DNA from: Gelidibacter gilvus
Lineage (GTDB): Bacteria > Bacteroidota > Bacteroidia > Flavobacteriales > Flavobacteriaceae
Reading direction: 5' to 3'
Assembly: GCF_004115975.1 (NCBI RefSeq)
Contig: NZ_SDDZ01000006.1
Location: forward strand, 186,001-250,000
DNA length: 64,000 bases
In this document: piece after piece, positions 4,673 through 19,916 of the stretch
Position numbering within the stretch: position 1 is the stretch's first letter
How the letters are laid out: each line of letters begins with the position of its first letter
Translations under genes and position numbers: made by a program
Notes under the pieces: model-generated
Databases searched by the model: none
Told to the model about the DNA's origin: nothing
Seen by the model: the letters and a program-made list of their open reading frames with translations, nothing else

Positions 4673-4717
4673 CAAACATAAGACAAAGGAGAGGATCCTT
4701 ATGTAACCTTTGTTACC
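4673..4717 (-). promoter_or_regulatory. Crp/Fnr-like palindrome plus -7 promoter element (sulfur/redox operon)
   Basis: On the minus strand GGTAACAAAGGTTACA (4717-4702) is an inverted repeat GTAAC-N4-GTTAC. After 21 bp follows TATGTTTG (4680-4673), a perfect Bacteroidota -7 element TAnnTTTG. The spacing puts the palindrome near -41, the usual place of a class II Crp/Fnr activator. The same layout recurs at three other places in the window. The transcript would start only a few nt before the GTG at 4664. Confidence 0.7.
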
Positions 4718-7087: not shown

Positions 7088-7131
7088 TGTTACTTGTGTT
7101 ACACATTTCAAACGGGATTCTCATATATTTA
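7088..7131 (+). promoter_or_regulatory. Crp/Fnr-like palindrome plus -7 element upstream of cydA
   Basis: TGTTACTTGTGTTACA (7088-7103) is a near-perfect inverted repeat (TGTWAC-N4-GTWACA). It is followed after 20 bp by TATATTTA (7124-7131), a -7 element with one change from TAnnTTTG. The cydA ATG is 34 nt further on. Placement matches the other three sites of this type; control of cytochrome bd by an oxygen- or redox-sensing Crp/Fnr protein would be expected from other bacteria. Confidence 0.65.
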
Positions 7132-7165: not shown

Positions 7166-8500
7166 ATGGAAGACATGCTCTTTTACGATCGGATGCAGTT
7201 TGCGTTCACGATCACTTTCCATTACCTATTTCCACAATTGACCATGGGATTATCTTTAATGATTGTCTATTTTAAATGGCGATTTTTAAGAACCAAGATT
7301 GATAAGTATAACGATGCCGCCAAATTTTGGATGAAAATTTTCGCGCTCAATTTTGCAATGGGCGTCGTCACCGGGATTCCAATGGAATTTCAGTTTGGTA
7401 CCAATTGGGCAAAATTCTCTGAACTTACGGGAGGAATTATCGGTCAAACCCTAGCCATGGAAGGGATGTTTTCTTTTTTCTTGGAATCTTCATTTTTGGG
7501 ATTATTCCTGTTTGGAGAGAAATTAATGGGTCAAAAGCTCCATTTCTTAACTGGTTTTCTGGTGTTTTTAGGATCTTGGGCAAGTGGCTATTTGATTATA
7601 GCCACACATTCATGGATGCAATACCCTGTTGGCTATGAAATTTTAGAAAATGGAAAATTTGTGCTTAACAATTTTGGAGCATTATTCTCTAATCCGTGGT
7701 TAATGCCTGCGTTTTTACACAATCAAATGGGATCTGTAATTACATCTTCTTTTGTGGTGGCATCTATTGGAGCTTTCTATCTCTTAAATAATAAGCATAG
7801 CGAATTTGGAAAACTCTTTGTAAAAACCGGTGTTATTTTCGGATTGATTTCTAGTATTTTGGTTGCTTTTCCAACTGGAGATTGGGCTGCAAAAAATGTA
7901 GCAACCCACCAACCTGTCACCTTTGCTGCAATGGAAGGCATTTTTGAAACCGAAGATGGTGGCGCTGAGATTATCTTAATTGGGCAGCCGGACGTCGGAA
8001 ACAAAAAACTCGACAATAAAATTGCGGTGCCAAATGTATTGAGCTTTTTAACTTACCAAAGATGGGATGCTGAGATTAAAGGCCTCAATGAATTTGATGA
8101 AAGTGTCTATCCAACCAATATTCCTGGATTGTATTACTCCTATCATATTATGGTGGGCTTAGGCACTATTTTTATAGGATTGTTGCTTATTGCAAGCATC
8201 CAATTGTTTCGAAAAAAACTCTATGCCACCAAATGGGTGTTGTGGGCGTTGATGTTCATGCTGCCGTTTCCATATATCGCCAATACCGCGGGATGGTACA
8301 CTGCCGAATTGGGTAGGCAACCTTGGTTGGTCTATAATCTGTTGCGGACTGCAGATGGGATTTCACCAACAGTTTCTTCAGGAAACACCCTGTTCACCTT
8401 GCTTGGCTTTATTGGACTTTATGCCTTATTAGGGTTATTGTTCATTATGCTAGCAGTCAAAATCATCAATAAAGGTCCTGAAACCTCAAAACACATCTAA
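7166..8500 (+). CDS. cydA: Cytochrome bd ubiquinol oxidase subunit I
   Basis: 444 residues from the ATG at 7166 (MEDMLFYDRMQFAFTITFHYLF). This start places the heme-ligand histidine at position 19, as in E. coli CydA; a 53-codon upstream extension runs through the promoter and is rejected. Conserved blocks: GIPMEFQFGTNWAKF, MEGMFSFFLESSFLGLF, FLHNQM (second heme ligand region) and GWYTAELGRQPW. The Q-loop is short compared with the 522-residue E. coli protein, as in CIO-type enzymes. The complex oxidises quinol and reduces O2 to water with high affinity in the inner membrane. It ends 2 nt before cydB. Confidence 0.97.
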   Translation: MEDMLFYDRMQFAFTITFHYLFPQLTMGLSLMIVYFKWRFLRTKIDKYNDAAKFWMKIFALNFAMGVVTGIPMEFQFGTNWAKFSELTGGIIGQTLAMEGMFSFFLESSFLGLFLFGEKLMGQKLHFLTGFLVFLGSWASGYLIIATHSWMQYPVGYEILENGKFVLNNFGALFSNPWLMPAFLHNQMGSVITSSFVVASIGAFYLLNNKHSEFGKLFVKTGVIFGLISSILVAFPTGDWAAKNVATHQPVTFAAMEGIFETEDGGAEIILIGQPDVGNKKLDNKIAVPNVLSFLTYQRWDAEIKGLNEFDESVYPTNIPGLYYSYHIMVGLGTIFIGLLLIASIQLFRKKLYATKWVLWALMFMLPFPYIANTAGWYTAELGRQPWLVYNLLRTADGISPTVSSGNTLFTLLGFIGLYALLGLLFIMLAVKIINKGPETSKHI

Positions 8501-8502
8501 CT

Positions 8503-9579
8503 ATGGAATTATTCTGGTATATCGTATTAATGACTATGCTAACCATTTATGTCATTTTGGATGGTTATGATTTTGGTGCAGGAATCATTCATTTATTTTT
8601 TGCCAAAACCGAAAAAGATAAGAAAGCTATCACAAACGCCATTGGTCCATTTTGGGATGCCAATGAGGTTTGGCTCATAGCTGTTGGCGGTGTTTTGTTT
8701 TTTGCGTTTCCCACGTTGTACGCCTCGTCATTCAGTGGGTTTTACTTGCCATTGATGATGATTTTATGGTTACTTATTTTCAGGGCGATTGGTCTCGAAT
8801 TACGAGGACAAATCAAGAACAGAATGTGGGAGGCTATTTGGGATAAAGCATTCGGGATTGCAAGTTTACTGCTGGCTCTATTCTTCGGAATCGCCTTGGG
8901 AAATATTGTAAGAGGCGTGAATTTGGGTATGGTTACCGATGGTGTTTCCACACATGAGCCCCATTTTTTCTTTTTGCCTTTATGGAATTCGAGTTTTAGT
9001 CCGCATGCCGAACATTTGGGAGTGATTGATTGGTTTACCTTAATTTTAGGCCTTGTTGGTGTGGTATCCTTAGCAATTCATGGTGCCAATTGGATTATTT
9101 TCAAAACCAATTCTGACTTGAACCCAAAACTAAAAAAAGTGATTTTTAATTTGAATTTTGTACTGTTGGCATTGGTCATAATATCCTTGTCCACATGGCA
9201 TATCATTGATCCAAATCCATTTCGCAACTTTATGGAGCATCCTTGGTTAATTATTTTTCCGCTGATGACATTTACGGGACTTTTGGGTTTGTTTAAAGTA
9301 AAAGCATTCAAAAGAGACGGATTAGGTTTTCTTTTCTCAACGTTGTTTCTGCTGGGCGGATTAGCATCTACTGTGGCCTCCATATTTCCGAAAGTGTTGC
9401 CCTCTACAAACAACGTCAACCCATCTTTAACATTATATAATGTTGCAGCCCACGAGTATGGGTTATCCGTTGGCGTATATTGGTTTGTAATTGCGGCACT
9501 TTTAGTTGGGATTTATATGTTTGTGCAATACCGCGTTTTCCGAGGTAAATTGGACGATGTTGGCTATGGCGAACATTAA
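8503..9579 (+). CDS. cydB: Cytochrome bd ubiquinol oxidase subunit II
   Basis: 358 residues with eight to nine membrane helices. The N-terminus MELFWYIVLMTMLTIYVILDGYDFGAG carries the family signature (LDGYDFGAGI). FWDANEVWL, a loop conserved in CydB, follows at about residue 50. It stabilises heme insertion into CydA and forms the second half of the oxidase. The start codon is 2 nt after the cydA stop, so the pair is translated from one mRNA. Length is normal for Bacteroidota CydB. Confidence 0.97.
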   Translation: MELFWYIVLMTMLTIYVILDGYDFGAGIIHLFFAKTEKDKKAITNAIGPFWDANEVWLIAVGGVLFFAFPTLYASSFSGFYLPLMMILWLLIFRAIGLELRGQIKNRMWEAIWDKAFGIASLLLALFFGIALGNIVRGVNLGMVTDGVSTHEPHFFFLPLWNSSFSPHAEHLGVIDWFTLILGLVGVVSLAIHGANWIIFKTNSDLNPKLKKVIFNLNFVLLALVIISLSTWHIIDPNPFRNFMEHPWLIIFPLMTFTGLLGLFKVKAFKRDGLGFLFSTLFLLGGLASTVASIFPKVLPSTNNVNPSLTLYNVAAHEYGLSVGVYWFVIAALLVGIYMFVQYRVFRGKLDDVGYGEH

Positions 9580-18865: not shown

Positions 18866-19444
18866 ATGAAAAAAATACAATATTCTAAAACATACCGCAT
18901 CGTTCATTGGGCGATAGCCATTTCATTTCTGCTCTTATTAATTACAATTTTATTGCGATTAACTTGGATGAATAAATACAATATGGCGGCTATTATACAA
19001 GATTATCTAAAAGATACTGGTCAGATTTTATCAGAAGATCAAGGCATTGCCTTAGCTAAAAAAATAAGACAACCCATGTGGGATTGGCATATTTACCTCG
19101 GCTATATATTGGTTGGTTTATTTAGTATTCGCTTTATACTTCCTGGGTTCGGACAAATGAAGATCCAAAATCCTTTAGGTAAAAACCTCACCATAAAAGC
19201 GAAATTTCAGAAATGGACCTATATTATTTTTTATGTCTGTGTGCTTGTTTCATTAGTTACCGGACTTATCATAGAATTAGGACCAAAAGAATTGAAAAAG
19301 CCAATGGAAGACATCCATGTTCTTGGTATTTATTATTTGGTCGCATTTATAGTAATCCATTTGATAGGCGTATTGATAGCTGAGTTCACGGAGCATCGAG
19401 GAATTATTTCAAGAATAGTTAGTGGTCCAAAAAAGAACAAGTAA
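18866..19444 (+). CDS. Cytochrome b561-type membrane protein (hydrogenase cytochrome b-like)
   Basis: 192 residues with four membrane helices. Histidines lie in the positions used to bind two b-type hemes: YRIVHWAIAISF (helix 1), WHIYLGYILVG (helix 2), and EDIHVLGIYYLVAFIVIHLIGV (two in helix 4). This is the prokaryotic cytochrome b561 / Ni-Fe hydrogenase cytochrome b fold, which passes electrons between quinones and a periplasmic or membrane partner. No partner enzyme is encoded next to it. It is the last gene before a 470-bp gap. Confidence 0.82.
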   Translation: MKKIQYSKTYRIVHWAIAISFLLLLITILLRLTWMNKYNMAAIIQDYLKDTGQILSEDQGIALAKKIRQPMWDWHIYLGYILVGLFSIRFILPGFGQMKIQNPLGKNLTIKAKFQKWTYIIFYVCVLVSLVTGLIIELGPKELKKPMEDIHVLGIYYLVAFIVIHLIGVLIAEFTEHRGIISRIVSGPKKNK

Positions 19445-19581
19445 CATCTAGAAAAAATACTTTTACCTAATTACTTAGCAATTACATAACGCTTAATTGA
19501 GTCAATAACCTCAAGTATTTTCTCTCTCACTTCTTCTAATATAATAAATTTTAGCGCTTTGAATGACACTATGTTGTTATG

Positions 19582-19626
19582 TGTAACTCAGGTTACATTA
19601 CAACAATTAGAAGCAGACTATCTTTA
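19582..19626 (+). promoter_or_regulatory. Crp/Fnr-like palindrome plus -7 element of candidate sRNA
   Basis: TGTAACTCAGGTTACA (19582-19597) is a perfect TGTAAC-N4-GTTACA palindrome, the best of the four in the window. After 21 bp comes TATCTTTA (19619-19626), TAnnTTTG with one change. Transcription would start near 19632 and run into DNA with no ORF. Confidence 0.65.
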
Positions 19627-19631
19627 ATAAA

Positions 19632-19848
19632 ATTAAAATTAAGGCTATAAGGGTCATTCTAGTGAGGCATCATAGATCATGTAGTTGCACATTTATTCAG
19701 AGAATTATCTAATGAAAATGAGGTTTTGATGGTTTGACCTAACAGGTTACTAGTGTAAATGGAGGCACGAGAAAAGTAAATTGATGTGGTTATCAGTTTT
19801 TATTGGTTGAAAGTGGAAAAGCACCCTTGAAAAAGGGTGTTTTTTTTT
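19632..19848 (+). ncRNA. Candidate redox-controlled small RNA
   Basis: A stretch of about 215 nt with its own promoter (Crp/Fnr-like site and -7 element ending at 19626) and its own intrinsic terminator (19822-19848). Every ATG in it on the plus strand is followed within about 10 codons by a stop, so it does not code for a protein. The genes on either side are 190 and 70 nt away. By layout it parallels FNR-activated sRNAs such as E. coli FnrS, though no sequence similarity is claimed. It could instead be an untranslated leader of the RND operon if the terminator is leaky. The 5' end is estimated. Confidence 0.5.
19822..19848 (+). terminator. Intrinsic terminator of candidate sRNA
   Basis: CACCCTT and AAGGGTG arms around a short A-rich loop are followed by a run of nine T (19840-19848). 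This is the strongest intrinsic terminator in the first third of the window. It lies 380 nt past the cytochrome b stop, too far to be its natural terminator. Confidence 0.8.
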
Positions 19849-19851
19849 GTG

Positions 19852-19896
19852 GGTAACATAGGTTACTGACCATGAGCTTTATCACACGTATGTTTG
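19852..19896 (+). promoter_or_regulatory. Crp/Fnr-like palindrome plus -7 element of the RND operon
   Basis: GGTAACATAGGTTACT (19852-19867), an inverted repeat GTAAC-N4-GTTAC, is followed after 21 bp by TATGTTTG (19889-19896), a perfect TAnnTTTG. The centre of the palindrome is about 42 bp before the expected start site, the class II activator position. It immediately follows the sRNA terminator. Confidence 0.7.
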
Positions 19897-19916
19897 TGGC
19901 ATAAATGATTGTAAAC

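Follow-up and report, generated by a model that had tools for sequence, protein, structure and literature searches.

FnrS is a small RNA of Escherichia coli that is activated by FNR. MalH and MicX originate from one genomic place, MalH being released from an mRNA by processing and MicX having its own promoter (PMC9438474), and 21 candidate small RNAs derived from untranslated regions have been described for Bacteroides thetaiotaomicron (PMC7366714). Rfp18 of Flavobacterium psychrophilum is described as a small RNA that is conserved across species and affects metalloprotease mRNAs, and the main text of the paper concerned contains the terms 'crp' and 'fnr' 0 times (PMC9723704). Among the open-access literature matches listed, neither a regulator-activated small RNA of this kind in Bacteroidota nor the RNA considered here is described.

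The locus lies in a 64,000-nt stretch of the Gelidibacter gilvus contig NZ_SDDZ01000006.1 (positions 186,001 to 250,000; hereafter the window), where a sequence-only reading had proposed an FnrS-like, regulator-activated small RNA. This proposal still provides the best reading, but in an altered form, since the locus is a deletion scar in which conservation is confined to the last ~72 nt, and these form the 3' end of an mRNA in relatives. Judging from the comparisons described below, we consider it quite probable that the locus is a stand-alone small RNA gene that is activated by a Crp/Fnr-type regulator and was born from an mRNA 3' end. As in the case of FnrS, this would be a stand-alone small RNA with a Crp/Fnr-family promoter and an intrinsic terminator. 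Unlike FnrS, it has no Rfam hit, its palindrome is of the HcpR2 type, it originates from a deleted operon, and its targets and chaperone are only putative. As far as the published descriptions go, it resembles the 3' UTR-derived MalH and MicX, since it terminates a parent mRNA in some species but has its own promoter in others; it differs from them in that the parent coding genes have been deleted or have decayed at many loci, while the RNA keeps the promoter of its parent. Set against Rfp18 by description only, it is likewise a flavobacterial small RNA conserved across species.

Features of the locus and its neighbours. Positions are those of the window.
Feature	Position	Strand	Basis or remark
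Cytochrome b561 gene	18866-19444		Upstream neighbour
Crp/Fnr-type palindrome TGTAACTCAGGTTACA (perfect)	19582..19597	+	Motif search
-7 box TATCTTTA	19619..19626	+	Matches TAnnTTTG at 5 of its 6 fixed letters; 22 nt downstream of palindrome core
Predicted small RNA, ~218 nt	19631..19848	+	Start inferred from -7 box
Decayed start of SQR-like gene (~41 codons, start codon lost)	19642..19745	+	Alignment and shuffles
Last codons of deleted 45-aa small ORF (..GGTRKVN; stop TGA 19782-19784)	19746..19784	+	Alignment
Conserved RNA module (model R1), 72 nt: hairpin, linker, terminator	19777..19848	+	Covariance model
Module hairpin 1, CUGAU/AUCAG, overlapping the small-ORF stop codon	19781-19796	+	Alignment
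Intrinsic terminator, stem-loop and nine T	19821..19848	+	Sequence and fold
Second palindrome GTAACATAGGTTAC, tolC/RND operon promoter	19853..19866	+	Motif search; core starts four bases beyond T-run
tolC promoter -7 box TATGTTTG	19889..19896	+	22 nt downstream of second palindrome, spacing as at 19582 promoter
tolC	Start 19905 or 19917		Downstream neighbour; name by eye and from earlier reading

The elements on which the proposal had been built were recovered largely as described: the location between the cytochrome b gene and the tolC/RND operon, the palindrome with a -7 element 22 nt downstream of it, the strong intrinsic terminator with its stem and nine T, and, beyond this terminator, a separate copy of the promoter for the RND operon. 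The statement that no ORF exceeds about ten codons was correct insofar as there is no real ORF, but the longest ORF on the plus strand of 19630-19848 has 16 codons (24 on the minus strand, with ATG, GTG or TTG starts). The predicted RNA is thus non-coding and ends at an intrinsic terminator, as judged from the nucleotide sequence. The fold of 19630-19848 has an energy of -49.6 kcal/mol (z -2.33), and 4 of 200 shuffles were as good. A generic promoter and terminator scan, the promoter rule of which is that for sigma-70, listed neither the 19582 promoter nor the 19821-19848 terminator. Rfam gave 0 matches in the window at gathering score, and the best sub-threshold match at the locus (E 0.071) was on the opposite strand. 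FnrS or another Rfam sequence family was rejected as an identity of the RNA, as a gathering-score match was absent from the window.

In flavobacteria, the sigma-A -7 box is TAnnTTTG and spans -12 to -5 (PMC9723704). Because the -7 box of the locus was taken to span -12 to -5, the start of the transcript would fall at ~19631 and the palindrome centre at -41.5. In E. coli, a centre at about -41.5 is the position of a class II activator. The spacing of 22 nt between palindrome and -7 box recurred in all 16 palindrome-bearing loci among the 17 examined. Within the window, the palindrome core GTAACNNNNGTTAC occurs exactly three times, at 4703, 19583 and 19853, and four palindromes are found when up to one mismatch is allowed, as compared to a shuffle mean of 0.98 (1 of 100 shuffles was as high). 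The whole 4.63-Mb genome contains 12 copies of the core versus 19 of a reversed control pattern and, since the reversed pattern is the commoner of the two, the number of palindromes alone amounts to no genome-wide excess. Seven of the 12 genomic palindromes are located on the 264-kb contig of the window (binomial p 1.2e-6). In the window, the palindromes at 4703-4716 (exact) and 7089-7102 (one mismatch) are located upstream of two ORFs at 7166-9579, which resemble cytochrome bd oxidase subunits (name by eye). Upstream of tolC, a palindrome with at most one mismatch is present in 78 of 79 named loci, and the best -7 box is at 22 nt in 72 of these 78.

A link to FNR itself would be no more than putative, as the palindrome corresponds to an HcpR2-type consensus and no regulator is tied to the site. 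According to Rodionov et al. (2005), the core GTAACNNNNGTTAC is the HcpR2 consensus, and the HcpR2 regulator has a Pro at the position of CRP Glu181 (PMC1274295). The HcpR2 operator GTAACnnnnGTTAC is found at the locus. The genome of the window encodes seven HTH_Crp_2 genes over the cut-off, and a Pro at the position of CRP Glu181 was seen in none of the six that were inspected by eye (the seventh being C15). The Crp/Fnr protein that adjoins two palindromes reads TSRVVISR at this place. Its gene is located on contig C40 at 158.8-159.4 kb, in the order Crp/Fnr gene, palindrome, TauE/SafE-like permease, palindrome, persulfide-dioxygenase/rhodanese-like gene (names by eye). This set, with two exact palindromes, corresponds to L152 1316-3976 and is perhaps the core of a sulfide or persulfide regulon. 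Rhodanese-, thioredoxin- and cytochrome-like genes are found beside other copies of the module (by eye). Together with the SQR-like gene described below, these neighbours and the C40 set hint at a sulfide or redox regulon.

The origin of the locus became apparent from a search with 19570-19904 against 98 genomes, which gave a match in 10 of them, the window's own included. The two halves of this query match ~1.5 kb apart in G004 and G045, and a 485-aa gene lies between them in these two genomes as well as in G008 (G. japonicus), G002 (G. algens) and G035 (Mangrovimonas spongiae). The encoded protein scores above the Pfam cut-off for pyridine-nucleotide-disulphide oxidoreductases. Since its score against the sulfide:quinone reductase NCBIfam is far below the cut-off (54.6 bits, with a cut-off of 525), we use 'SQR-like' as a label only. 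The order in the intact relatives is promoter, SQR-like gene, 45-aa small ORF and terminator, and the small ORF has no match in Pfam or NCBIfam. Window positions 19582-19755 align with the promoter and the first ~41 codons of the SQR-like gene of G004 (129 of 182 columns), and the part of this alignment downstream of the promoter scored 69, the maximum in 2000 shuffles being 37. Positions 19746-19916 align with a segment that runs from the end of the small ORF through the 3'UTR into the tolC promoter (160 of 171). Neither the SQR-like gene nor the small ORF was found anywhere in the genome of the window; both were found in 3 of the 9 Gelidibacter genomes, which doubles as a positive control for the genome searches. 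By these alignments, the window locus is the scar of a deleted SQR-like/small-ORF operon. The predicted RNA and the intact relatives have the 3' end of the parent mRNA and its terminator in common, as is typical of a 3' UTR-derived RNA, the parent having been lost in the window. The genome-wide check for loss covered Gelidibacter, and the other stand-alone loci were inspected for 5 kb upstream of tolC.

The 45-aa small ORF is present at L016 2624-2761 (minus strand) and about 20 other loci. The intact protein copies are mostly 84-93% identical to that of G004, and a few are 62-74% identical; they have a hydrophobic middle and a C-terminus that mostly reads GGHGGTRKVN. Some copies of the ORF occur away from any SQR-like gene or differ in their tail.

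The 3'UTR behind the small ORF is alike across genera. As judged from its alignments and from Rfam, the last 72 nt of the locus is a structured RNA module with compensatory changes, which is absent from Rfam and present in some genera of Flavobacteriaceae. All five pairs of helix 1 are formed in 24 of 24 aligned rows, with double-sided changes in three of the five. For both helices together, 0 of 500 shuffles equalled the alignment in paired cells, in double changes or in covariation score, and 30 of 500 did so in the number of pair types. The resulting model R1 gave 78 hits in total, of which the best 44, all below E 3e-4 in 81 sources, were used (18 own rows, 3 repeats and 23 new), together with 4 from G003, G004, G006 and G045. 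A second alignment comprised 17 rows, 16 of which had not been used for model R1 but had been fitted to it. Here, 98.8% of the helix-1 cells are paired and two of the five pairs show double changes; for both helices, four of five measures were reached by 0 of 500 shuffles and the fifth by 1 of 500. Compensatory examples are CUGAA/UUCAG and CUGGC/GCCAG, and one helix-1 pair is broken in L038. Conserved structure in relatives, which had been put forward as a check of the proposal, was thus found in the helix-1 covariation of both alignments (24 and 17 rows), and the 3' module is conserved in structure and sequence. Across the aligned copies the linker is U- and GGUU-rich, and repeated UGGUU motifs are present in the module; the linker of the window, AUUGGUUGAAAG, retains one GGUU of the usual two. 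Helix 1, its loop and the linker hardly differ between copies, whereas the terminator stem shows free variation.

In a search of 397 Flavobacteriaceae genomes, the module was detected in at least 16 at E 1e-5 or below, including the window's own and two model genomes, and in an order-wide sample in at least 1 of 296, which is again the window's own; the strict filters of these searches drop weak matches, so that the counts are lower bounds. Strong hits were obtained in 6 of the 9 Gelidibacter genomes, all of them rows of model R1. G001, G005 and G007 contain no strong copy and a second one was seen in none of the Gelidibacter genomes, and G. salicanalis (L026) has no module near tolC. The absences in the former three and near tolC in the latter indicate that the module can also be lost. 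The module is missing after some copies of the small ORF as well (e.g. L065, L052, L050, L049 and L090). Where present, it closes operons of several kinds, namely those with the SQR-like gene and small ORF, with a cytochrome-c-like lipoprotein gene and with a thioredoxin-like gene (by eye). It lies behind a thioredoxin-like gene at L095 568-641 and L096 3307-3382, and second copies of G045 and G306 are located in L150 and L151. In L034, L060, L038 and L069 the module is located 1.1 to 3.3 kb from tolC, for which reason a tolC leader was rejected.

The 48 module copies divide into 22 that overlap an intact small ORF and 26 without such an overlap. A palindrome with at most one mismatch occurs within 300 nt upstream in 14 of these 26 (11 exact), as compared to 6.5% of random windows in the same loci (1295/20000; 4.9% exact), and in 2 of the 22 copies with an intact small ORF, these two having no SQR-like gene in between. 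Eleven of the 26 were set aside post hoc, when the palindrome positions had already been seen, and none of the 11 has a palindrome. Another ORF is located beside the module in eight of them (L047, L039, L033, L056, L101, L059, L096 at 3307 and L095 at 568), L070 and L083 have an altered ORF and come from the same strain, and L053 at 2470 is weak. Among the remaining 15 stand-alone copies, 14 have the palindrome and L069 is the exception. The spacing was examined in 17 loci, being these 15 and two with a small ORF and no SQR-like gene nearby. The palindrome is present in 16 of them and, with 22 offsets tried, the best -7 box is exactly 22 nt away in all 16, matching 5 or 6 of the 6 letters in 15. 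The promoter of G006 is damaged, with one mismatch in the palindrome and a -7 box of 4/6. From the estimated start to the module there are 29 to 198 nt across the stand-alone loci, and because this distance varies so widely only the 3' module is shared among these copies. Remains of lost genes were recognized by eye in L096 (SQR start) and in L087, L097, L034 and L038 (small ORF), the shuffle test having been applied to the window only. L034, L087, L097 and L088 (4 of the 15) contain a second, intact small ORF in the same locus, and these copies may have arisen as duplicates that decayed, not as scars of a sole copy.

A tolC tree of 85 rows places the window as sister of the intact G004 (support 94) and the scar in G006 as sister of the intact G. 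japonicus (support 97). With 15 stand-alone and 20 coding rows, at least 11 switches between the coding and stand-alone forms are needed on this tree; the minimum is 8 when four mixed loci are omitted or scored as coding, and 7 when L069 is also left out. The 42 rows without a module within 5 kb were left out of the count. This is a gene tree made with a quick method, with many open forks and with G003 falling near Bizionia. The count is blind to gain versus loss, and the gene remnants point to loss. Two contigs titled Algicola (L067) and Chlorobiota (L098) have their tolC among those of Flavobacteriaceae and are perhaps misassigned MAG contigs.

The simplest rival would be a plain deletion scar, in which the promoter and terminator of the lost operon have not yet decayed and any transcript would be non-functional. 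The scar itself is real, the SQR-like gene and small ORF being absent from the whole genome, and the module has been lost in other Gelidibacter too. Moreover, the promoter and leader stretch of the window differs at 8 of 46 sites that are identical in G004 and G002. However, of the 85 sites of the SQR remnant that are identical in the intact G004 and G002, 26 have changed in the window, as compared to 12 of 85 in the intact G045 of another genus. For the module stretch 19756-19850 the changes in the window amount to 1 of 87 such sites (G004 and G008), 2 of 66 (G004 and G002) or 1 of 63 (all three). The contrast between 26/85 and 2/66 (Fisher p 5.5e-6) indicates that the module was kept while the adjoining dead gene decayed; for comparison, tolC is 91.6% identical between the window and G004, and 73% at four-fold sites. 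The conservation of the gap, which had been proposed as a second check, is therefore seen in the module stretch, and the promoter geometry is kept in relatives. The palindrome at fixed spacing in 14 of 15 stand-alone copies, the minimum of 8 to 11 changes of form and the compensatory changes seen in module copies that lack the small ORF also argue against a plain scar. Since the module and promoter core stay and the remnant decays, 'just a scar' was rejected as a full account; we regard a non-functional leftover as quite improbable, and the region is probably not mere debris. The retention of promoter and module in relatives without the coding part suggests that the RNA itself does a job.

This job might consist of ending transcription and shielding the tolC promoter from read-through, with the module acting as a composite terminator and insulator. 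It has a strong terminator inside and a T-rich stretch behind hairpin 1, and it directly precedes the tolC promoter in many loci, these loci having been chosen for tolC. Such a role is hard to reconcile with a terminator stem that is free to vary next to the near-constant helix 1, loop and linker, with the copies far from tolC, with those behind thioredoxin-like or cytochrome-c-like genes (by eye), or with the retention of their own promoter by the stand-alone copies, and we deem it very unlikely. The occurrence of the module at the end of several kinds of operon and its repeated UGGUU motifs would also suit a 3'UTR site for mRNA stability or an RNA-binding protein of one regulon, in which case the scars would retain the RNA to titrate the protein. 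However, such a binding protein is purely putative and base-pairing fits the same sequence data, so that this account, too, appears unlikely.

In the preferred reading of an activated stand-alone small RNA, a Crp/Fnr-family activator would bind the palindrome at ~-41.5 and drive a transcript of ~218 nt that ends at the intrinsic terminator. The 3' module derives from the promoter - SQR-like - small ORF - terminator operon, the coding part of which was deleted in the lineage of the window; in relatives with an intact operon it would be the mRNA 3' end, possibly released by processing. The GGUU-rich linker and the GUGGUU loop may base-pair with mRNAs as targets or be recognized by an RNA-binding protein, and the RNA would thereby adjust expression once a redox or sulfur regulon has been switched on. 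An RNA that acts in trans via linker and loop is most likely, with a protein-binding RNA as a reasonable alternative. In a wider version, for and against which we see the scales as level, one RNA would end several operons of Flavobacteriaceae under one Crp/Fnr-type promoter and would repeatedly have been turned into a stand-alone gene by deletion of the coding part, inheriting the promoter. If so, selection would act less on the proteins of the operon than on its RNA output, and the loci would represent a natural replicated experiment in the birth of small RNA genes. The system combines a defined core with a promoter arrangement that stays the same across genera, and it includes pairs of close species of which one has the parent genes and the other lacks them; together with the repeated switches between mRNA 3' end and stand-alone form, this makes the origin of small RNA genes testable by comparison.

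Candidate targets were sought with RNAduplex by pairing the first 42 nt of the module with the start regions of 60 ORFs of the window. Cytochrome b561 ranked first (-25.8 kcal/mol, z -3.3), and refolding of this pair with a second script gave -24.3, with 1 of 300 shuffles as low. The pairing was not kept in relatives (z -0.9 in G004 and +0.7 in G008) and cytochrome b561, although the best candidate of the window, was not retained as a target. A 12-nt perfect complement, AACCAACCAAAA, had 116 matches in 11 genomes versus 73 for the reversed pattern. We inspected 103 of the 116 in 100 stretches (99 with one match and one with four), leaving out 13 of G451. Twelve of the 103 resemble the module itself, and in 54 cases a search around the match gave no sense ORF of 60 codons. 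Three gene families recurred in two of the 11 genomes, and none did so in three or more.

Another RNA family, Flavo-1 RNA (Rfam RF01705), occurs in the same neighbourhoods (L055, L087 and L088). It differs from the window RNA in its position downstream of tolC, and it has no match at the window locus up to E 10. It was found in three of the six loci scanned, at L055 7557-7643, L087 7399-7486 and L088 7443-7534.
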